This document shows positions 4,545 to 53,705 of a stretch of DNA of 64,000 nucleotides, piece by piece. The stretch covers positions 447,001 through 511,000 of the forward strand of contig NZ_CP083546.1 of NCBI RefSeq assembly GCF_025144145.1, written 5' to 3'. The first letter of the stretch is position 1, and every line of letters starts with the position of its first letter. The notes under the pieces were generated by a model that was given only the letters and a program-made list of their open reading frames with translations, made no database searches and was not told where the DNA came from. Origin of the DNA: Leisingera sp. M658 (GTDB lineage: Bacteria > Pseudomonadota > Alphaproteobacteria > Rhodobacterales > Rhodobacteraceae). Made by a program: the position numbers and the translations under genes.

Positions 4545-5254
4545 TGCAGATGTTCCCGCTGGTGGCCAAGGGCGCCATGGTGCGCCGCCGCAGCAAGATC
4601 TTGGTCGGGCCGGTGGATCTGACACTGGGCGGGCAGGGCACTTCGATTGTGATCGGCCCCAATGGGGCGGGCAAAACAACGCTGCTGAAGATGCTGCATG
4701 GCATTGTGCGGATGAACGGCGGCAGCCTGGACTGGGCCTGCCCGCTGGAAGAGGCGCAAAAGCATCAGGCTTTTGTTTTCCAGACCCCAGTGATGATGCG
4801 GCGCTCGGTGATCGAGAACATCGCCTATCCGTTGCGGCTGACCGGCATTGCCCGCAAAGAGGCGCGTGCGCGGGCGGCGGATTGGGCCTGCCGGGTGGGG
4901 CTGGGGGCAATCCTGGAGCGCCAAGCGACTATGCTGTCCGGCGGTGAGCGGCAGAAGCTGGCTCTTGCGCGCGCCCTGGTGCGCGAGCCGCAGGTCTTGT
5001 TCCTGGATGAGCCTTGCGCGGCGCTGGATGGCCGCGCCACCCGCGAGATCGAGGATATTCTGGCCCATGCATCGGAAAGCGGCACGCGGCTGGTGATGTC
5101 CACCCACAACATGGGCCAGGCCCGGCGGCTGGCGGATGAGGTGATCTTTGTCCTGCAGGGCCGCATTCATGAATTCAGCCCGGCGAAAGATTTCTTTGCC
5201 GGACCCGAAACCTCTCAGGGACGCGCATTTCTGAACGGAGATATTGTAGAATGA
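4544..5254 (+). CDS. tupC: Tungstate ABC transporter ATP-binding protein
   Basis: This is the cytoplasmic ATPase that powers the TupB channel. The 236-residue protein carries Walker A (GPNGAGKTTLLKM, near residue 38), the Q-loop (FVFQTPVMMRRSVIENI), the ABC signature (LSGGERQKLALARAL), Walker B (VLFLDEPCAALD) and the switch histidine (STHNMGQARRLADE). The start at ATG 4544 overlaps the tupB stop; an in-frame GTG at 4541 is the only close alternative. Its own stop overlaps the tupA start by four bases (ATGA). All motifs are intact. Confidence 0.92.
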   Translation: MQMFPLVAKGAMVRRRSKILVGPVDLTLGGQGTSIVIGPNGAGKTTLLKMLHGIVRMNGGSLDWACPLEEAQKHQAFVFQTPVMMRRSVIENIAYPLRLTGIARKEARARAADWACRVGLGAILERQATMLSGGERQKLALARALVREPQVLFLDEPCAALDGRATREIEDILAHASESGTRLVMSTHNMGQARRLADEVIFVLQGRIHEFSPAKDFFAGPETSQGRAFLNGDIVE

Positions 5255-6054
5255 AACATCTGATTATTGCTGCCGTTGCCTCAATGGCAATGGCCACGGC
5301 AGCGCTGGCGGAAGAGATGAAGATGGCGGTGACCACTTCCTTCCACAATTCCGGTCTGGCCGAGGTCCTGCTGCCGGAGATCAAGAACGATCTTGGTCTG
5401 GACGTGCAGCTTTTGGTTGTTGGCACCGGTCAGGCACTCCGGCTGGGCGAAGCCGGTGACGTGGATGCAATTCTGGTGCATTCGAAGAAAGCCGAAGAGA
5501 CGTTCCTGGCTGGCGGATACGGCACCCACCGCCGCGAGATCATGTATAATGATTTTGTCTTCATTGGGCCAAAGGCGGATCCGGCCGGCGTGTCCGGCGC
5601 AGCGGATGCTGCAAACGCGCTGCAGAAGATTGCCGGGGCAGAGACCGCCTTTGTCAGCCGCGGCGATGACAGCGGCACGCATAAGAAAGAGCTGAGCCTG
5701 TGGGCCTCGGCCGGCCTTGATCCTGAAGGTTTCGGCGACTGGTACCGCGCGGTTGGTGCGGGGATGGGGGCTGCTCTGAATACGGCATCGGGCATGGACG
5801 GTTACATCATGTCCGACCGGGCAAGCTGGCTCAACTTTGGCAACAAAGGCGGCTTGGCGCTGCTGTTTGCGGGTGATCCGGTGCTGTTCAACCAATACGC
5901 CTACATTCCGGTGAACCCGGAAAAACATGGTCACGTGAAGAACAGCCTGGCGGTGCAATTGGAGGCTTGGCTGGTTTCGGACAAAGCGCAAGAGCTGATC
6001 AATGACTATCAGATCAATGGCGAGACGCTGTTTGTGTTCAACGCCAAACAGTAG
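5251..6054 (+). CDS. tupA: Tungstate ABC transporter periplasmic binding protein
   Basis: This is the periplasmic receptor for tungstate. The 267-residue precursor has a signal peptide (MKHLIIAAVASMAMATAALA, cleavage near residue 20). It then has VTTSFHNSGLAEVLLP, which contains the TTS-type oxyanion-binding segment of TupA proteins, and later SRGDDSGTHKKE, another ligand-loop signature. The HSKKAEETFLAGGYGTHRREIMYNDFV stretch is also typical of TupA/WtpA. It is last in the tupBCA operon and is followed by a structured repeat. The cell presumably uses tungsten enzymes such as formate dehydrogenase, but none lies in this window. Confidence 0.92.
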   Translation: MKHLIIAAVASMAMATAALAEEMKMAVTTSFHNSGLAEVLLPEIKNDLGLDVQLLVVGTGQALRLGEAGDVDAILVHSKKAEETFLAGGYGTHRREIMYNDFVFIGPKADPAGVSGAADAANALQKIAGAETAFVSRGDDSGTHKKELSLWASAGLDPEGFGDWYRAVGAGMGAALNTASGMDGYIMSDRASWLNFGNKGGLALLFAGDPVLFNQYAYIPVNPEKHGHVKNSLAVQLEAWLVSDKAQELINDYQINGETLFVFNAKQ

Positions 6055-6114: not shown

Positions 6115-6302
6115 CTCCCGCCCATTCCGGGTATCAAAGATACCCTGCAAAGGTTGGGCGTGGCAGCCGCGCTGTGCGCGGCAGGGGGCGTTGCAATTGA
6201 ACAAACCGCAGTCGCGGCTGAAGCGGTTGCGCGCCGCGCGCCAGCGCGGTGCGCGGCCCAACTGAGAGGTGCATTTTCAAAATGCGCCGGAACAGGCGGG
6301 AG
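6115..6302. repeat. Dispersed structured element, full two-ended copy
   Basis: The element is bounded by CTCCCGCCC (6115-6123) and GGCGGGAG (6295-6302). Inside are a perfect hairpin GGGTATC-aaa-GATACCC (6129-6145), GGTTGGGCGTGGC (6152-6164), a perfect hairpin GCCGCGC-tgt-GCGCGGC (6166-6182), an opposed partial copy ending in GGCCCAACT, and a hairpin with GCATTTT-c-AAAATGC (6271-6285). The ends and core recur near 23577, 40742 and 52667. It fills the gap between convergent tupA and phnF and probably also acts as a terminator for both. Confidence 0.7.
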
Positions 6303-6311
6303 CCTCTTGCT

Positions 6312-7025
6312 TCAGGCCCCGCCGCCAACAGTCAGGGTGACCCGGTCGCCGGCAAACCAGGTGCGGCCAAACTCGACGGGGCGGTTCCCGGGATCAGTAT
6401 TGATGCCGGTGGTGCGCAGGATCGGGCTGCCTTCGGCTATCTTCAGATGCAGGGCCTGGGTCGCGTTGGCGAGTTTGGCCGTGATCCGGGTTTCGGCGCG
6501 GGTGTAGTCCTCAACACCCTGTTTTTGCAATGCCGCGGTGACTGAGCGCAGGTCTTCCAGCGCGCCCAGCATTCCCGGAAACCGGTCCGCGGGAAAGATG
6601 CTTTGAAACAGGGCAATGGGCTGGCCGTCAGCAAGAGAAAGCCCGTCATAGACATGCACCTGGGCGCCGGGATCCAGCTGCAGCGCATTGGCTTCACGGG
6701 GCGCCGCGCCGCGGGTTTCCAGGGTCAGGATCTGTTTGGCGGGGCTGCGCCCCTCACGCGTCAGGTTCTGGTGAAAGCGCACCCGCTTGCCAATTGGATA
6801 ATCCGCTGGTTTGGCCGCCACGAACACCCCGGCGCCGCGGCGCGGGTGCACCAGGCCCTGTTCCGCCATATCGGCCAGCGCCCGGCGCACAGTGTGGCGG
6901 TTCACCCCGAAACGGGCCGACAGCTGCGCCTCGGCGGGCAGCTTGCCTCCGGTTTCGTAGCGGCCTTGTGCGATGTCATCCGTCAGGGCAATGGCGATGG
7001 ATTTCCAAACGGGGGTGCGGGCCAT
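6312..7025 (-). CDS. phnF: GntR/HutC-family regulator of phosphonate metabolism
   Basis: PhnF is a ligand-binding repressor of phosphonate genes. The 237-residue protein has a winged helix-turn-helix at residues 5-70 (GRYETGGKLPAEAQLSARFGVNRHTVRRALADM) and a UTRA effector domain from about residue 90 to the end. It faces phnGHIJKLN across a 107-base gap that holds TTGTCTA/TAGACAA sites, the expected layout for a local repressor. The C-terminal EFGRTWFAGDRVTLTV is typical of UTRA. The effector is presumably a phosphonate or a pathway phosphate ester; that is inference. Confidence 0.88.
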   Translation of the reverse strand: MARTPVWKSIAIALTDDIAQGRYETGGKLPAEAQLSARFGVNRHTVRRALADMAEQGLVHPRRGAGVFVAAKPADYPIGKRVRFHQNLTREGRSPAKQILTLETRGAAPREANALQLDPGAQVHVYDGLSLADGQPIALFQSIFPADRFPGMLGALEDLRSVTAALQKQGVEDYTRAETRITAKLANATQALHLKIAEGSPILRTTGINTDPGNRPVEFGRTWFAGDRVTLTVGGGA

Positions 7026-21171: not shown

Positions 21172-23556
21172 ATGCTGCACGTTTTGTTCCGGGTTCTCAT
21201 TTGCGGCCTGCTGAGTTTTGGCCTGGCCGCTCACGCCGGCGCGCAGGAAAGTGAAGCGAACGGAGCCGATACGTTGTCCCGTGCGATCGAACAGGCGGCG
21301 CAAAGCGGTGTCAGTGTGGTCGTGGTGGACAGCAGCGGCCAGTTGCTGAACGCGCCGCCGGACGAGGAGCAGGAAGCGGACCATCCTGCATCCGACACGA
21401 TGGAGCAGCCCTCGGCGCTGATGAAAGCGCAATCCAGGGTTGCCGCCTTTCGGGCAGAGCTGAACAGCCGGCTTGAAGCGCTGCCCTATTCAATTTTTGA
21501 GATGCAGTACATTCTGCGCCAAACCAGCCCGGACGGCCGCATCATGACCTATGCCGAAGTGCTGGGCTGGAGCGTTTTGTTCCTGCTGATCGGGCGCTGG
21601 CTGTCGACAGAGATTTACGGCAAACGCATCGCCAAGCGTTTTGTGGTCGCCCGGATCCAGGCCAACCCGGAAGGCTATCAGGAAAAGATGCCATTCCTTG
21701 TGTACCGCTTCCTGATGGGAATCGGCGCCACTGTTTTTGCGATGGTTTTCGCGGCTCTTATTTCCTATCTGATCTTCGGCGCTTCGGGCGACCCTTCAAT
21801 CGAATTTACGGCAACGGCTGTCTATACGGCGTTTTTCCTGGCCCGCACGGTGTCCGATCTGTGGCGGATGGTGCTGTCGCCGTTCCTGGCCCAGTACCGG
21901 ATACCGGTGTTCTCAGACCGGGACGCAAAGCGGCTTTACATCTGGGCGTCCCTGCTGGCGACCTATGACATCTCCTCGACGCTGTTTGCCACCTGGGTCG
22001 GCGATTTCGGTCTGAACTATAATGTCTACGCGCTGGTTTACGGAGTTCTGGCGCTGGTGGGGATGCTGGGCAACCTGCTGATGGTGCTGGTCAACGGGCG
22101 TGCCATTTCCAACGCCATCCGCGCCGGCCGCGTGCCGGATAAATGTTCCTTGCTGGTGCGTGTTCTGGCAGTTGCCTGGGCGCCGGTTCTGATGGCTTAC
22201 ATGGCATTTGGCTGGCTTAAGCTGGCCTTTGACCTGGTGCTGGAAAAGGATATTTCGATCCCGTTGATGGCGGGCAGCTATTTTGTTCTGACCACGATCC
22301 TGATTGTCTATGGCGCGATCAACTACTTCATCGAACGCTATTTCAGCCGCACCCGGCGAATGCAGGCTGCTATGGCGGCAACCGGGCCGGAAGCAGCCGC
22401 CACGGAAGCGGAGGGTGTTTCTGAGCAACCGGGTGAAGAGGCTGTTCCGGATGAGGCGGAGACCGATGCGGAAGCCGCAGATGCACTGACTGCAAGACAC
22501 CCGATTGGCACTTACCAGGATCTTGCCCGCAGAGTGGCAGGCATTCTGGCCTTTGTGGTCGGGGCCTATTCACTGGTGATCGTCTGGAACCCGGACGCCC
22601 AATGGACCGAAACCACTGCGGCTGAACGGGTGATCGATGTGACGGTGATCCTATTCATCGGCTATATCGTCTATCACCTGTTCCGGATCTGGATCGACAG
22701 CAAGATCGATGAGGAAACCGGCGATGTTTCGGAGGCTGAGCTGGGTGATGAAGGCGGTGCCGGGGGCGCCAGCCGTCTGGCCACTTTGCTGCCCTTGTTC
22801 CGGGGCACGATCCTGGCGGTTGTGCTGGTCTCGATCGTGCTGATCGTGCTGCTGGAACTGGGTATCAATGTCAGCCCGCTGTTCGCCGGTGCCGGTGTTG
22901 TCGGTCTTGCGGTTGGCTTTGGTTCGCAGACGCTGGTGCGGGATATTTTCTCTGGCGCCTTTTTCTTGATCGATGATGCCTTCCGCAAGGGCGAGTACAT
23001 CGACATCGGCGACGTAAAGGGCACGGTCGAGAAGATCTCGGTGCGGTCTTTCCAGCTGCGCCATCACCTCGGTGCGCTGCACACGATTCCCTTTGGAGAG
23101 ATCAAGGTTCTGACCAATTACTCGCGTGACTGGGTGATGATGAAGCTGCCGATGCGCGTCACCTATGACACTGACGTGGAGAAGGTTCGCAAGCTGATCA
23201 AGAAGCTTGGCCAGAAGCTGATGGATGACCCGGTCGTCGGACATACATTTATCCAGCCGCTGAAGTCCCAGGGTGTGATCGAGATGCAGGATTCAGCGAT
23301 GATCATTCGCGTGAAATTCATGACCAAACCGGGGGATCAGTGGATTGTCCGCAAACGGGTGTACCAGGAGATCCGTGAATTGTTTGCCCGCGAGGGCATC
23401 AGATTTGCCCATCGTGAGGTCACTGTGCGGATGGCGCCGGACCAGGCCGAAGAGATGACGCCAAAACAGAAGGAGGCTGCCGCCGGGGCAGTGCAGGCGG
23501 CGATTGACGAAGATCTTCTGGACGAGATGGGCGGCCCGGGCGGCGATGACCGCTGA
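21172..23556 (+). CDS. Large mechanosensitive channel of the MscS family
   Basis: This 794-residue inner-membrane protein has a signal peptide (cleavage near AHAGAQ, residue 24), a periplasmic N-terminal part, about eight further hydrophobic segments and a C-terminal MscS domain. The pore helix and beta domain read SPLFAGAGVVGLAVGFGSQTLV near 570, then DIFSGAFFLIDDAFRKGEYIDIGDVKGTVEKISVRSFQLRHHLGALHTIPFGEI. An acidic, alanine-rich loop (residues about 395-440) precedes the last helices. It resembles the enlarged MscK/YbdG-type architectures that release solutes on osmotic downshock. It is a single gene followed by repeat elements. Confidence 0.88.
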   Translation: MLHVLFRVLICGLLSFGLAAHAGAQESEANGADTLSRAIEQAAQSGVSVVVVDSSGQLLNAPPDEEQEADHPASDTMEQPSALMKAQSRVAAFRAELNSRLEALPYSIFEMQYILRQTSPDGRIMTYAEVLGWSVLFLLIGRWLSTEIYGKRIAKRFVVARIQANPEGYQEKMPFLVYRFLMGIGATVFAMVFAALISYLIFGASGDPSIEFTATAVYTAFFLARTVSDLWRMVLSPFLAQYRIPVFSDRDAKRLYIWASLLATYDISSTLFATWVGDFGLNYNVYALVYGVLALVGMLGNLLMVLVNGRAISNAIRAGRVPDKCSLLVRVLAVAWAPVLMAYMAFGWLKLAFDLVLEKDISIPLMAGSYFVLTTILIVYGAINYFIERYFSRTRRMQAAMAATGPEAAATEAEGVSEQPGEEAVPDEAETDAEAADALTARHPIGTYQDLARRVAGILAFVVGAYSLVIVWNPDAQWTETTAAERVIDVTVILFIGYIVYHLFRIWIDSKIDEETGDVSEAELGDEGGAGGASRLATLLPLFRGTILAVVLVSIVLIVLLELGINVSPLFAGAGVVGLAVGFGSQTLVRDIFSGAFFLIDDAFRKGEYIDIGDVKGTVEKISVRSFQLRHHLGALHTIPFGEIKVLTNYSRDWVMMKLPMRVTYDTDVEKVRKLIKKLGQKLMDDPVVGHTFIQPLKSQGVIEMQDSAMIIRVKFMTKPGDQWIVRKRVYQEIRELFAREGIRFAHREVTVRMAPDQAEEMTPKQKEAAAGAVQAAIDEDLLDEMGGPGGDDR

Positions 23557-23576: not shown

Positions 23577-23650
23577 CTCCCGCCCCCGCGCTGGACCGCT
23601 AGTGCGCTCCGCTTGGGGGTGGGCGTGGCGCCGCGCTGGCGCGCGCCGCT
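23577..23650 (+). repeat. Dispersed structured element, half copy
   Basis: CTCCCGCCC (23577-23585) starts 21 bases after the mscS stop, and GTGGGCGTGGC (23619-23629) leads into an imperfect GC hairpin. It shares ends and core with the elements near 6115, 40742 and 52667, in sense with the preceding gene. No closing GGGCGGGAG end is present. Confidence 0.5.
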
Positions 23651-23657
23651 GCCTCCG

Positions 23658-23683
23658 GCGGGGATATTTCTCCCAGAAAGAAG
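23658..23683 (+). repeat. 3'-end motif GG-TATTT/CAGAAAGAAG, sense to mscS
   Basis: GGGGATATTT (23660-23669) is followed by CTCC and CAGAAAGAAG (23674-23683). The same pattern occurs downstream of three other genes in this window, always in the sense direction. A transcript 3'-end or terminator-like role is inferred. Confidence 0.5.
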
Positions 23684-23775: not shown

Positions 23776-25122
23776 CTATTCCGGCCAGCATGCCGGGGCG
23801 CTGCCGCAATGGGAGGCGGGCTGGCCCCAGCGCATTTTGCTGGTGTCCAGGGCAAGCGGCGCAGCAAGGCGGCGGCCCGGCCCCCAGCCGCTGTTTTCGA
23901 TCTCCTGGGTGAAGTCGCTGTGAGCCGGTTTGGCGACATACGGTCCGTCGGCACATTTCTGCATTCCACCAAGCAGTTCTGCGGTGCGGGCAAGCGATAG
24001 ATGCGCTGCGGGCACTGCCGCCCCTTGGGCAGCAGTTGCCAAGGCCGAGAGCACCGCTGCTGCCATCAAGTAGCCCGTGGCATGGTCCAGCGTTTGTACC
24101 GGTAAAGGCTGCGGATCGTCCGCCTTGGCCTGGACGCGGCCTGTATCGGCGATGCCTGCACTCATCTGCACGAGGCTGTCAAAACCGCGCCGCAGGGCCC
24201 AGGGGCCGGTCCAGCCATAGGCATCCAGAGAGGCTTCAACCGCATTGGGAGCGATCCGGCGGCGGGCGTCCGCGCCGTAGCCCAGACCATCCAGTGCACC
24301 GGGACGGTAGCCATGCACCAGCACATCGGCTTTGGACAGCAACGCCTCAAACCGCTGCCGGTCCGCCGTATTGCGCAGATCCAGGGAGGCCATGCGCTTA
24401 CCCAGCGCAACATCGGTGATGACACCAGGCTCGTCCCAGCCGGGCGGGTCGATACGCAGCACATCTGCGCCAAATCCGGCCAGAGTGCGGGTGGAAACCG
24501 GACCGGCCAAAACCCGCGTGAGGTCCAGCACTCTCAGCCCGGCCAGCGGGCGTTCGGCCGTTGCCTTTGGCCGCTCACGCAGTTGGATAACACGGGGCGA
24601 CCGCCATAGGATCAGCGGTTCCGCCGCCACAGAAAGACCTTGCGGATGCGACAGCCAAGCCGCTCGGCTGCGCATGGCGGCGGCCGCACCGCCTGCGTTT
24701 ACGATTTCGTCTTCGAGATGGCTGGCCTGCCATTGTTTCATGGCAACTGCCACGGCTGCGCGGTCTCCCGCGCAGTCTAGTACTTTCAGGGCAGCTTGCC
24801 GGTGGTGCGGCAGGTTGGTGTGCAGGCGGATCCAGCCATCTGCGGTTTCATAATTGCCGGCCACCGGATCCCACAGGCTGGGAAGCTCCCAGCCCTCGGG
24901 GCGGAAACTGTAGCTGAACCAGAATGAAGCCAGGCGCTGGTCCACCGTGACGTCCGGTGCAACGGGCGCAAGGTTCAGCGCCTTTACCAGCCGCGCCAGT
25001 TCCAACCCAACGGCGGCGACTGAGGCATTGGCAAGTTCTGTCACCGCAAAGGCGCTGCGCCAGTGTCCTGTGCCGGTGAGGCGGTAGCTGCCTGGCGCCG
25101 GCAGGGCAGTGAGCAGGGTCAT
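23776..25122 (-). CDS. CaiB/BaiF-type (class III) CoA-transferase
   Basis: This 448-residue protein carries the CaiB/BaiF core (PLAGLRVLDLTRVLAGPVSTRTLAGFGADVLRIDPP near residues 193-228, KRMASLDLRNTADRQRFEALLSKADVLVHGYRPGAL). It then has VQTLDHATGYLMAAAVLSAL, where the aspartate sits as the catalytic Asp does in formyl-CoA transferase. Unusually, about 190 residues precede the core; they look like a second, diverged half of the fold (SFRPEGWELPSLWDPVAGNYETADGWIRLH). It starts inside the permease gene (ATGA overlap), so it is coupled to an ABC importer. The acid it activates is unknown. Confidence 0.82.
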   Translation of the reverse strand: MTLLTALPAPGSYRLTGTGHWRSAFAVTELANASVAAVGLELARLVKALNLAPVAPDVTVDQRLASFWFSYSFRPEGWELPSLWDPVAGNYETADGWIRLHTNLPHHRQAALKVLDCAGDRAAVAVAMKQWQASHLEDEIVNAGGAAAAMRSRAAWLSHPQGLSVAAEPLILWRSPRVIQLRERPKATAERPLAGLRVLDLTRVLAGPVSTRTLAGFGADVLRIDPPGWDEPGVITDVALGKRMASLDLRNTADRQRFEALLSKADVLVHGYRPGALDGLGYGADARRRIAPNAVEASLDAYGWTGPWALRRGFDSLVQMSAGIADTGRVQAKADDPQPLPVQTLDHATGYLMAAAVLSALATAAQGAAVPAAHLSLARTAELLGGMQKCADGPYVAKPAHSDFTQEIENSGWGPGRRLAAPLALDTSKMRWGQPASHCGSAPACWPE

Positions 25123-39875: not shown

Positions 39876-40724
39876 ATGAAACTGCTGCGGTACCGCGCGG
39901 GCGGCGAAGTACGGCCGGGTCTTCTGGACAGCAGAGGCGCAGTCCGGGATCTATCGGCGCATGTGCCGGACATCACCGGTGCGGTGCTGGGGGACGAAAC
40001 CTTGGGCCGGCTGGCAGCGCTGGACCCGGCGGAACTGCCGCTGGCGAAAGGGCATCCGGAGCTGGCGCCTTGTGCCGGGCAGACGGGGAAGTTCCTTGGC
40101 ATCGGCCTCAACTACACCGATCACGCCGAGGAGATGGGCATGGCGCTGCCAGAGCATCCGATCCTGTTCCTCAAGGCGACCTCTTCCATTTGCGGACCGG
40201 ACGATGACGTGATCCTGCCGCGCGGCTCAGTGGCGGCGGATTGGGAAGTCGAGCTGGGCGTGGTGATCGGCACCGCAGCCAAATATGTCTCCGAAGACGA
40301 CGCGTTGAACCATGTGGCAGGGTATTGCGTGGTCAACGATGTGTCCGAGCGCGACTATCAGACCAAGCTGACCGGCCAATGGACCAAGGGCAAGAGCTGT
40401 GACACCTTCGGGCCGATCGGCCCCTGGCTGGTGACGCGGGACGAGGTGCCGGACCCGCAGAACCTGTGGCTGACCTGTGATGTGAACGGCGCGCGGCGGC
40501 AGACTGGAACCACGGCCACGATGGTGTTCACCGTGGCACAGATCATCTCGCATCTAAGCCAGCTGATGACCTTGCATCCGGGCGATGTGATCGCCACCGG
40601 CACCCCGCCGGGCGTCGGCATGGGGTGCAAACCGCAACCGGTCTATCTGCAGCCCGGCGACGTGATGCGGCTGGAGATCGAAGGATTGGGAGTGCAGACC
40701 CAAACGGTCCGGTCTGACGTTTAA
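39876..40724 (+). CDS. Fumarylacetoacetate hydrolase family protein
   Basis: This 282-residue enzyme has the FAH C-terminal fold with the metal triad region GLNYTDHAEEM ... EHPILFLKATSSICGP ... DWEVELGVVIGTAAKYV near residues 85-140. NDVSERDYQTKLTGQWTKGKSCDTFGPIGPWLV and GDVIATGTPPGVGMG follow. This form resembles 2,4-diketo-3-deoxy-sugar acid hydrolases and 2-hydroxyhepta-2,4-diene-dioate isomerases. A sugar-acid dehydratase and a dehydrogenase lie 0.6-3 kb away, which favours a 2,4-diketo-3-deoxyaldonate role. The start at 39876 fits the family N-terminus. Confidence 0.87.
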   Translation: MKLLRYRAGGEVRPGLLDSRGAVRDLSAHVPDITGAVLGDETLGRLAALDPAELPLAKGHPELAPCAGQTGKFLGIGLNYTDHAEEMGMALPEHPILFLKATSSICGPDDDVILPRGSVAADWEVELGVVIGTAAKYVSEDDALNHVAGYCVVNDVSERDYQTKLTGQWTKGKSCDTFGPIGPWLVTRDEVPDPQNLWLTCDVNGARRQTGTTATMVFTVAQIISHLSQLMTLHPGDVIATGTPPGVGMGCKPQPVYLQPGDVMRLEIEGLGVQTQTVRSDV

Positions 40725-40741: not shown

Positions 40742-40813
40742 CTCCCGCCCGTTCCGGCGCATTCGCAGAATGCGCCTTCCCGGTTGGGCGTGGCGCTGCG
40801 CCATGCGCAGCGC
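40742..40813 (+). repeat. Dispersed structured element, half copy
   Basis: CTCCCGCCC (40742-40750), a perfect 9-bp hairpin GGCGCATTC-gca-GAATGCGCC (40756-40776), GGTTGGGCGTGGC (40782-40794), then a perfect 9-bp hairpin GCGCTGCGC-cat-GCGCAGCGC (40793-40813). It starts 18 bases after the FAH-family stop. Stem sequences differ from the other copies while the pairing is kept. Confidence 0.65.
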
Positions 40814-40881
40814 GGGCCTGAATTCTGGGGCCCTAAAGCAGAACATGCCGAAGCTGCCTGGCTGCACGCGGCCGCGAGCGT

Positions 40882-41214
40882 TCACGCGCCGCTGCAAAAC
40901 TGCTTGTACAGCAAGGCTATCAATTCTTGTGTGTTGCCGTCGGTCAGGGAATAGAAAACCGTCTTGCCTTCCCGCCGCGTGGCAACCAGATCATCTTCAC
41001 GCAGCCGGGCGAGCATTTGGCTGACTGCGGCCTGGCGCATATTTAACAGGGCTTCCAGCTCACCCACGGATTTCTCGCCGGTGCCAAGATGGCATAGGAT
41101 CATCAGCCGCCCTTCATGGGCAAGCGTTTTGAGGAAAGCAGCCGCTGCTGCGGCGCGTTCCTGCATGTCGACTGGCGTTTCCGGGTCGATGAGGTCGTTG
41201 TTCTGGGCAGGCAA
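40882..41214 (-). CDS. sqrR: ArsR-family thiol-sensing repressor, SqrR/BigR-like
   Basis: This 110-residue winged-helix repressor (FLKTLAHEGRLMILCHLGTGEKSVGELEALLNMRQAAVSQMLARLREDDLV) lacks ArsR/SmtB metal-binding residues. It has just two cysteines: C41 in MILCHL and C107 in KQFCSGA, the positions of the persulfide-forming pair in SqrR of Rhodobacter capsulatus. It should therefore sense reactive sulfur or oxidants and derepress sulfide-detoxification genes. None of those lies next to it. The start is TTG 41214, which sits inside one arm of a perfect inverted repeat; the C41/C107 numbering supports this start. Confidence 0.82.
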   Translation of the reverse strand: MPAQNNDLIDPETPVDMQERAAAAAAFLKTLAHEGRLMILCHLGTGEKSVGELEALLNMRQAAVSQMLARLREDDLVATRREGKTVFYSLTDGNTQELIALLYKQFCSGA

Positions 41215-52213: not shown

Positions 52214-52642
52214 ATGACCGGGGTAAAGAACGGCGACACCGTGCGCATCCATTACACAGGCAAGCTGACGGATGGCACCGTTTTCGACAGTTCCGAGGGC
52301 CGTGATCCGCTGGAATTCACCGTCGGTGCGGGGCATGTGATCGCGGGCATGGATGCAGGGCTTGAAGGCATGTCCGTGGGAGAGAGCAAGACGCTGGATA
52401 TCCCCTGCGCCGAAGGATACGGCCCGATCAATCCCGCCGCGCGCCAGGAGATCCCCCGCGAGGGCATCCCCGAGGATATCCCGCTGGAACTGGGTACTCA
52501 GCTGCAGATGCAAAGCCCGGACGGCCAAGTGCTGCCGGTGACCGTGGTCGAGGTCGGCGACGAGACAGTCACCCTGGATGCCAACCATTTCCTGGCGGGC
52601 AAAGATCTGGTTTTCGATATCGCGCTGGTCTCGGTATCCTGA
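52214..52642 (+). CDS. FKBP-type peptidyl-prolyl isomerase, SlyD-like
   Basis: This 142-residue folding catalyst starts at ATG 52214 after GGAGGT. The FKBP part reads GDTVRIHYTGKLTDGTVFDSSEGRDPLEFTVGAGHVIAGMDAGLEGMSVGESKTLDIPCAEGYGP. It is followed by an insert-in-flap-like chaperone segment (ELGTQLQMQSPDGQVLPVTVVEVGDETVTLDANHFLAGKDLVFDI), the NHPLAGK-type motif of SlyD. The C-terminal His-rich tail of E. coli SlyD is absent. It is cytoplasmic and stands alone. Confidence 0.9.
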   Translation: MTGVKNGDTVRIHYTGKLTDGTVFDSSEGRDPLEFTVGAGHVIAGMDAGLEGMSVGESKTLDIPCAEGYGPINPAARQEIPREGIPEDIPLELGTQLQMQSPDGQVLPVTVVEVGDETVTLDANHFLAGKDLVFDIALVSVS

Positions 52643-52666: not shown

Positions 52667-52794
52667 CTCCCGCGCCCGCAGGTCTTCCGGCTGTGCCGGA
52701 AAACGCTTGGCGGCCTTGGGCGTGGCACTGCGCCAGGCGCAGTGCCACGCCCAACGGAAGCGGGCTTTGCCAAAAGCCCGGCGACGGGCGGGAG
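52667..52794. repeat. Dispersed structured element, full symmetric copy
   Basis: CTCCCGCGCCC (52667-52677) opens and GGGCGGGAG (52786-52794) closes a symmetric element. Inside are TTCCGGC-tgt-GCCGGAA (52685-52701), a perfect 18-bp central stem TTGGGCGTGGCACTGCGC (52716-52733) with its complement (52737-52754), and CGGGCTTT-gcca-AAAGCCCG (52761-52780). It starts 25 bases after the FKBP stop codon. This is the best preserved copy in the window. Confidence 0.75.
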
Positions 52795-52913: not shown

Positions 52914-53705
52914 TTACAGATAATCCTGCTGCGGCATTCCCAGCACGTGGAAACCGCCATCGACCCGGATGATTTCACCGGTCGTGCAAGAGCCTGCATC
53001 AGACGCAAGGTATACTGCGGTGCCGCCGACCGCCTCCAGCGTGGCGTTGTCGCGCATTGGCGCATTCTGGGCTGTATGCTTGAAGGTCTTGCGCGCGCCG
53101 CCTATGGCAGCACCGGCCAGTGTCTTCATCGGGCCGGGCGAAATTGCATTCACCCGGATGCCCTCGGGGCCCAGGTCGTTGGCCAAGTAGCGGGTCGCGG
53201 ATTCCAGCGCTGCCTTAGCCACGCCCATTACATTGTAGTTCGGCACCACCTGGTTTGATCCCTGATAGGTCAGCGTCAGCAGGGTGCCGCCGTTTTCCTT
53301 CATCAGCGGATGCGCACGGCGTGCCACTTCGATGAAGGAATAGGCAGAGATATCCAGCGAGTTCTTAAAATTCGCCCGGCTGGTGTCCAAGAACCGTCCG
53401 GTCAGCTCGGATTTGTCCGAATAGGCAATTGCATGGACCACGAAATCAATCGACGGCCAGCGGCTGCCAAGCTGTTCGAACGCCGTATCAAGCGAGGCGT
53501 CGTCGGTCACATCCACGTCGACCATAAAGTCCGAGCCGACGCTCTGTGCCAGCGGCTCCAGCCGCTTGCCAAAGGCTTCGCCCTGATAGGTGAAGGCCAG
53601 CTCGGCACCGGCTTCGGCCATGGCCTTGGCAATGCCCCAGGCGATGGAGCGGTCATTGGCAACGCCCATAATCAGGCCGCGTTTGCCGGTCAGCAGTCCC
53701 GCCAT
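52914..53705 (-). CDS. fabI: Enoyl-[acyl-carrier-protein] reductase (NADH)
   Basis: FabI reduces trans-2-enoyl-ACP in the last step of each fatty-acid elongation cycle and is the triclosan target. The 263-residue SDR-like protein has the divergent FabI cofactor start (GKRGLIMGVANDRSIAWGIAKAM) and the Tyr-x6-Lys pair in NYNVMGVAKAALE near 155-165. DLGPEGIRVNAISPGPMKTLA follows. ATG 53705 is preferred; GTG 53711 is also possible. It follows fabB directly, and the gene set ends at the strong hairpin 52862-52888. Confidence 0.95.
   Translation of the reverse strand: MAGLLTGKRGLIMGVANDRSIAWGIAKAMAEAGAELAFTYQGEAFGKRLEPLAQSVGSDFMVDVDVTDDASLDTAFEQLGSRWPSIDFVVHAIAYSDKSELTGRFLDTSRANFKNSLDISAYSFIEVARRAHPLMKENGGTLLTLTYQGSNQVVPNYNVMGVAKAALESATRYLANDLGPEGIRVNAISPGPMKTLAGAAIGGARKTFKHTAQNAPMRDNATLEAVGGTAVYLASDAGSCTTGEIIRVDGGFHVLGMPQQDYL

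Follow-up and report, generated by a model that had tools for sequence, protein, structure and literature searches.

The four intergenic sites that an earlier note picked out in a 64,000-nt stretch of the Leisingera sp. M658 genome (the window) are members of one dispersed repeat family, which occurs in part of the Rhodobacteraceae, beyond this one genome, and whose units join two hairpins to short recurring linkers. Functionally, we posit that these repeats could be structured mRNA 3′-end elements at gene boundaries, mostly convergent, in Rhodobacteraceae, a reading drawn from sequence comparisons that we hold at a rough probability of 40% and that several of the observations below count against.

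An intergenic repeat family of Rhodobacteraceae

Structurally, the repeat unit spans ~80 nt and consists of CTCCCGC, a variable hairpin (hp1), TTGGGC(GTGGC) and a second hairpin (hp2). This basic unit is asymmetric; a symmetric copy is two units facing head to head, as at sites 1 and 4 of the window, with one unit each at sites 2 and 3, in agreement with the symmetric copies reported before. A covariance model, R1, built from an alignment of 40 units (A1), recovered six units in the window at E < 1e-6 (6115+, 6222−, 23577+, 40742+, 52673+ and 52716−), all at the four sites, with the next-best window matches at E ≥ 0.2; short motifs taken singly did not exceed chance in this GC-rich window. The units and their flanking genes, the latter being predictions of our own codon-usage gene finder and not an annotation, are as follows.

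5251..6054, plus strand: gene upstream of site 1, co-oriented with the left unit (codon-usage gene finder)
6115..6193, plus strand: site 1 left unit, CTCCCGCCC, hp1 GGGTATC-AAA-GATACCC, GGTTGGGCGTGGC, hp2 GCCGCGC-TGT-GCGCGGC (from sequence; R1 53.7 bits)
6222..6302, minus strand: site 1 right unit, inverted, with variant core TTGGGCCGCGC (R1 51 bits)
6312..7025, minus strand: convergent gene beyond site 1 (codon-usage gene finder)
21172..23556, plus strand: gene upstream of site 2 (codon-usage gene finder)
23577..23658, plus strand: site 2, single divergent unit with core GGTGGGCGTGGC (R1 31.1 bits)
23776..25122, minus strand: convergent gene beyond site 2 (codon-usage gene finder)
39876..40724, plus strand: gene upstream of site 3 (codon-usage gene finder)
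40742..40822, plus strand: site 3, single unit (R1 75.9 bits)
40882..41214, minus strand: convergent gene beyond site 3 (codon-usage gene finder)
52214..52642, plus strand: gene upstream of site 4 (codon-usage gene finder)
52667..52726, plus strand: site 4 left unit, B type, CTCCCGCGCCCGCAGG-hairpin-TTGGCGGCCTTGGGCGTGGC (from sequence; R1 match 52673-52754, 44.7 bits)
52716..52754, no strand: central palindrome shared by the site 4 units, with 19-nt arms that are 100% complementary
52716..52794, minus strand: site 4 right unit, A type, minus-strand reading CTCCCGCCCGTCGCC-hp1-GCTTCCGTTGGGCGTGGC-hp2 (R1 80.3 bits)
52914..53705, minus strand: convergent gene beyond site 4 (codon-usage gene finder)

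By these gene calls every one of the four sites is flanked by a convergent gene pair, and each starts, as had been noted, downstream of a plus-strand stop codon, at 60 nt (site 1), 20 nt (site 2), 17 nt (site 3) and ~24 nt (site 4). The earlier note gave the four sites a common core and common ends; its coordinates hold, and the shared motifs do so only in part, the core of site 2 (23577) being GGTGGGCGTGGC rather than TTGGGCGTGGC, and site 4 starting with CTCCCGCGC and carrying GGGCGGGAG at its right end only. Similarly, the named stems exist and pair, as inverted repeats at site 4 and at site 3 (hp1 40756-40764/40768-40776 and hp2 40793-40801/40805-40813, 100%), except that hp1 of site 2, the weakest window copy and one with GGTGGGC instead of GTTGGGC, is imperfect. 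The outer ends of site 1 are inverted copies of each other (6115-6130/6287-6302).

Two unit types were distinguished. A-type units have an insert of ~33-39 nt, often with covarying outer trinucleotides, which among 219 distinct units (a count that took in 27 non-Rhodobacteraceae loci, probably chance matches) formed the pairing sets CTG/CAG (23), CCG/CGG (17), CCC/GGG (8) and CGG/CCG (5), more rarely CAA/TTG (4), CAG/CTG (3) and CCA/TGG (3), and, without full pairing, CCG/CCG (53), CCC/GCG (14) and CTG/CCG (5). B-type units read CTCCCGCGCCC..GGCGGCC TTGGGC, have inserts mostly longer than those of the A type, and stand opposite an A unit in the full copies seen. Among 29 units re-found by the covariance model, CTCCCGC stood at the start in 25 and C/T-TGGGC at the expected place in 27, a linker conservation that is partly built in by training on units with both exact linkers; the bases directly 3′ of TTGGGC were variable. 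Adjoining CTCCCGC on its upstream side is a purine-rich, T-poor tract of ~10 nt, with similar composition in our genome (G 0.45, A 0.25, T 0.08) and in other genera (G 0.42, A 0.23, T 0.09). Pairing with CTCCCGC does not account for this tract, a hairpin between the two being found in 11 of 57 units, equal to shuffles (0.19).

Genomically, the 4.89-Mb genome holds 33 copies of the exact pattern CTCCCGC-N10..40-TGGGCGTGGC, and 0 of a reversed control. The covariance-model search that the earlier note had proposed did turn up further copies, with at least 130 R1 matches in the same genome at E ≤ 0.1; R1 counts per genome are lower bounds, drawn from at most 150 candidates per genome here, 23 in the order sample and 33 in the class sample. 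On chromosome C1, 117 of these matches (≥30 bits) resolve into ~95 sites, 22 of which hold at least two units, arranged as +− in 21 cases, so symmetric copies are a minority. All 21 R1 matches with E < 0.002 in 464 kb sampled were intergenic, where 86% of the sequence is coding, and in 400 kb of a genome from another genus (G200) 10 of 11 matches with E < 0.01 were intergenic, the eleventh and weakest overlapping a predicted gene.

Taxonomically, the exact pattern recovered copies in all 21 genomes of a genus sample (6 to 35 each) and matched 49 of 295 genomes of a family sample, some of these probably by chance. R1 found matches in at least 49 of 196 genomes of an order sample, all 49 in Rhodobacteraceae, and, in a class sample of 142 genomes, at least in our own genome and one other (G210, Rhodobacteraceae), next to four genomes of other families with weak matches (E 1.9e-5 to 9.4e-4) that we take as probable chance. 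Named hosts among the matches listed are Leisingera, Phaeobacter, Tritonibacter, Epibacterium, Ruegeria, Shimia, Tropicimonas and Rhodovulum. The set of named loci numbers at least 118, of which 27 lie outside Rhodobacteraceae and are probably chance matches; these were left out of the cleaned wobble, folding, T-run and terminator tests described below, and of the purine-tract composition given above; the other-genera set for wobble, folding, T-runs and the purine tract leaves out another 25 Leisingera-like loci as well.

Stem covariation and strand asymmetry

The earlier note had argued that pairing is kept while stem sequence changes, and that an absence of covariation in larger alignments would speak against it. 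Covariation is strong in the 40 units of A1, where 80.0% of cells are paired versus 65.2% in shuffles (which leave relatedness among copies in place), with 122 double-changed cells versus 43.9 in shuffles and at most 55 when the partner is slid by 1-3 columns. Changes fall on both sides in 15 of the 18 stem pairs. In 22 of the 40 rows the outer helix has no pairing at its middle position, and this counts against the 3′-end reading. Orthologous sites likewise differ by compensated letters: site 1 carries GGGTATC/GATACCC in two genomes (G000, G308) and GGGCATT/AATGCCC in another (G299), and a further site has GCGC/GCGC (L044) versus GCAC/GTGC in Leisingera SS27 (L201). The stems thus covary also at single orthologous sites, where pairing was kept while letters changed in place. 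These comparisons support selection acting on the structure of the element; the earlier note's selection on RNA or DNA structure is the best reading of them, and wobble and folding narrow it, for hp1, to one strand.

With regard to wobble, A·C on the CTCCCGC strand is G·U on its complement, so an A·C excess points to the complement strand. In A units, hp1 mismatches read on the CTCCCGC strand were A·C and G·T at 10:2 in our genome and 25:10 in other genera, whereas random transitions would give an A·C share of 0.53 (pooled p = 0.001). A first, uncleaned set of 220 units that kept the 27 non-Rhodobacteraceae loci gave 71 A·C versus 26 G·T in hp1, with shuffles at ~50 versus 49; these wobble counts are not fully independent of one another. 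Between orthologous hp1 stems (12 units, 10 sites), single changes comprised 20 A·C and 0 G·T, only single-change classes being used since double changes are inflated by loop register shifts; one exception outside this pattern, a site 1 ortholog (G298) with G·T on the CTCCCGC strand, was seen by eye. B units alone gave 3:2 in our genome and 1:2 in other genera. For hp2 the asymmetry is mixed, with 21 A·C and 23 G·T in the uncleaned set (10:5 for stems scoring ≥6), 11:2 in the cleaned count that gave the hp1 ratios above, and 4:1 (own) and 15:7 (other genera) in later cleaned sets, and this gives less weight to an mRNA 3′-end explanation.

Folding points the same way for hp1: for all 30 own A units, and for 99 of 105 A units of the other set, the complement of the hp1 insert folds better (p = 1e-7 and 5e-15 versus shuffles). 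With the whole unit plus 30 nt, the complement folds better in 19 of 30 and 68 of 105, and the whole unit folds stably on both strands. For four single-unit stretches of the window, the complement had lower energy in one, higher in two and equal in one, and a lower z-score in all four. The whole-unit folding, the uncleaned hp2 counts and the B-unit wobble counts weigh against the 3′-end reading.

From a mutational perspective, the usual leading-strand C-to-T pressure would act in the direction opposite to the A·C excess, and transcription-linked mutation could contribute to the wobble asymmetry. The constrained form of hp1 is, judging from wobble and folding, probably RNA or another single strand, with the order 5′-hp2-..GCCCAA-hp1-GCGGGAG-3′.

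Gene context, residence and candidate roles

The gene upstream of CTCCCGC is co-oriented with it at 28 of 31 own sites, 17 of 19 in G200, 9 of 10 in a further genome (G232) and 69 of 95 named-loci units, and 20 of the 28 own distances from CTCCCGC to the co-oriented stop fall within 8-62 nt. Convergent gene pairs flank 22 of 31 own sites, 9 of 19 in G200, 7 of 10 in G232 and 52 of the 95 named units, which include Leisingera orthologs and, the 27 non-Rhodobacteraceae loci being kept in these counts, chance matches. The baseline for our genome, which takes in the element-holding junctions, is 38 convergent among 221 sampled junctions ≥60 nt (p = 2.5e-9 for the own set). Of the 33 own loci with the exact pattern, 31 entered these counts; L042 had no called gene on one side, and window site 2 (L037) lies outside this stricter pattern and so is absent.

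In convergent pairs, the complement strand of a unit would be the 3′UTR of the neighbouring gene. A unit would then be transcribed as 5′-hp2-..GCCCAA-hp1-GCGGGAG-3′ in the 3′UTR of the gene running towards its neighbour's stop, and its two GC-rich hairpins with the GCCCAA linker would form a stable tail, typically ending 8-60 nt before the neighbour's coding region. Such a tail could fix or protect the mRNA 3′ end as a barrier to 3′-5′ exonucleases after Rho-dependent or other termination, and would thereby keep antisense transcript across the neighbour in check; where units stand head to head, both genes would be served. In this the element would resemble REP stem-loops, which are described as impeding 3′-5′ decay (PMC5082802).

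The other-strand gene stands at a tightly kept distance from CTCCCGC, which counts against this 3′-end reading and would fit a role on that gene's own mRNA; sites with no convergent neighbour (8 of 19 in G200) also count against it. Read in the former way, the repeat would be a sense-strand 3′UTR element of the gene upstream of CTCCCGC, acting on translation exit or mRNA stability in the manner of E. coli REPs, an alternative in keeping with the close co-oriented stop distances and with the stability of the whole unit on both strands; we regard it as unlikely because the wobble and hp1 folding asymmetries favour the other strand and convergent neighbours are enriched.

With respect to termination, the exonuclease-barrier form of the 3′-end reading can be set beside one in which the elements replace canonical intrinsic terminators. 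At site 1, 9 of 12 element-free orthologs carry a hairpin followed by at least four T just past the stop (the other 3 being weaker), and in six element-bearing genomes this terminator hairpin is missing or decayed, both by eye. At site 4 a terminator is kept whether the element is present or absent (by eye), and across 63 single-unit convergent sites intrinsic terminators numbered 11 in the complement direction and 15 in the same direction, against a control of 24 of 78 per direction, which is not significant, so that replacement is very improbable. A first directional count (same 25/90, complement 9/90), from four sets that were not de-duplicated, was set aside, its effect being gone in the cleaner test. 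The site 1 orthologs that lack the element (L276, L279, L281 and others) show, by eye, a canonical intrinsic terminator where relatives bear the repeat. Four consecutive A in the 12 nt preceding CTCCCGC, a T-run on the complement, were seen in 5 of 56 units of our genome and in 7 of 123 of the other-genera set. The lack of a T-tract and of significant terminator depletion both count against the 3′-end reading too.

At the level of DNA, the repeat might instead be a site between convergent genes for a nucleoid protein, gyrase or fork/transcription conflict. Convergent regions collect supercoils, which would suit such a role, and the better unit lies on the leading strand at 71 of 95 own sites (p = 0.03 versus a 64% leading coding share). 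The bias was not seen in G200 (9 of 21 units), so replichore orientation was rejected as a general rule, and the stem strand asymmetry argues for a transcribed or single-stranded form; together these make a DNA-level site improbable. The octamer GGGNAGGG is confined to the plus strand in the nine C1 samples that reach to 1.75 Mb, and in the eleven from 1.945 Mb onwards it sits mostly on the minus strand, a polarity that would put the origin close to position 0 and the terminus at about 1.85 Mb.

Evolutionarily, several deep branches of a 21-genome tree carry the element at sites 1, 3 and 4, and one eight-genome clade is without it at sites 1 and 3; at site 4 it is absent from the six readable genomes of that clade, two of these six holding ~1 kb of other DNA there. 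Intergenic stretches of 0.6-1.2 kb with other DNA and no unit found were seen in L277 (G303, site 1) and in L342, L343 and L344 (G311, G310 and G307, site 4). In three related genomes (loci L334, L327 and L332) the central palindrome of site 4 has gone, completely from G308 and G297 and in part from G298, with the outer arms left in place; site 3 in G297 has lost its CTCCCGC end. In L329 (G295, site 4) the right-unit hp1 and GGGCGGGAG end are tandemly duplicated. Sites are retained across the genus while intergenic flanks have strongly diverged, a pattern that long residence with losses fits better than frequent movement, gains also being possible; at filled versus empty sites the flanks are too diverged for target duplications to be judged.

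This record bears on the idea of a non-autonomous mobile repeat, REP- or MITE-like and moved by an unknown enzyme, that settles downstream of stop codons and whose pairing is kept by transposition or quasi-palindrome repair and not by host use. Dispersed copies with shared ends, head-to-head pairs, the patchy range (at least 49 of 196 order-sample genomes) and presence/absence differences at orthologous sites are all what mobility would produce. We nevertheless find it doubtful, given that a search for Y1 transposase/RAYT (PF01797) gave 0 matches in our genome and was positive in 5 of 14 control genomes, that sites persist across the genus despite their diverged flanks, that stems are almost wholly different between copies, unlike recent copies of a single source, and that strand-specific wobble intermediates are not expected from palindrome repair.

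Returning to the 3′-end reading, we tentatively suggest a broader one, that the family may be a new family-wide class of cis-acting RNA, with about a hundred paralogous boundary elements per Leisingera genome, whose stem sequences would evolve freely under a pairing constraint on the strand opposing the adjacent gene and which would mark convergent transcript ends. If true, the repeat would spread as a functional module and then diverge by compensatory change, so that a single genome would offer dozens of separate natural experiments on how RNA structure evolves. Intergenic repeats are usually classed as selfish palindromes; here the stems vary while pairing and the linkers CTCCCGC and TTGGGC persist, with the wobbles that are tolerated pointing to one strand, making the long-standing question of host RNA use of REP-like repeats testable in cultivated marine bacteria. 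The question also touches on how convergent transcripts are brought to an end in GC-rich alphaproteobacteria.

Comparison with known repeat systems

The earlier note knew of no named family with this layout, and both searches made since are consistent with that: Rfam release 15 gave no window match at gathering score, the best sub-threshold match at site 4 being Scr6106 (33.2 bits versus 52.5 required), and no description of the repeat family was found in the literature searched, which under-covers subscription journals. Integron attC sites have the core GTTRRRY, which GTTGGGC fits; the likeness was set aside because the cores face the wrong way.

Among alphaproteobacterial repeats, the Caulobacter CIR elements are ~110-bp intergenic repeats with two predicted arms joined by a linker (PMC2229807), a layout that the Leisingera family resembles. 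CIR elements carry GANTC (same source), whereas the Leisingera family has it in 2 of 57 units, with ~3 expected, and a CcrM/GANTC link was therefore rejected. E. coli REPs, many of which lie near stop codons according to the RepRanger paper (PMC12306157), and the BIMEs that they form share with our family an extragenic position, many copies and inverted unit pairs; unlike them, the Leisingera family has no conserved palindrome, no RAYT/Y1 match and strand-specific covariation, and by the tests made it is REP/BIME-like in lifestyle and not a member of a REP family.

Closest in habit is Br-REP1 of Bradyrhizobium, described in PMC5082802 as an intergenic repeat of three stem-loops at ~200 sites, patchy among relatives and found in the overlapping 3′UTRs of a convergent gene pair. 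Br-REP1 is defined there by a conserved stem, CCGGAATCTCGAGATTCCGG, which had 0 occurrences in the window and all loci examined, whereas the Leisingera family varies in stem sequence. Alphaproteobacterial, intergenic, patchy in range and found at convergent 3′ ends, Br-REP1 is the nearest described relative in lifestyle.
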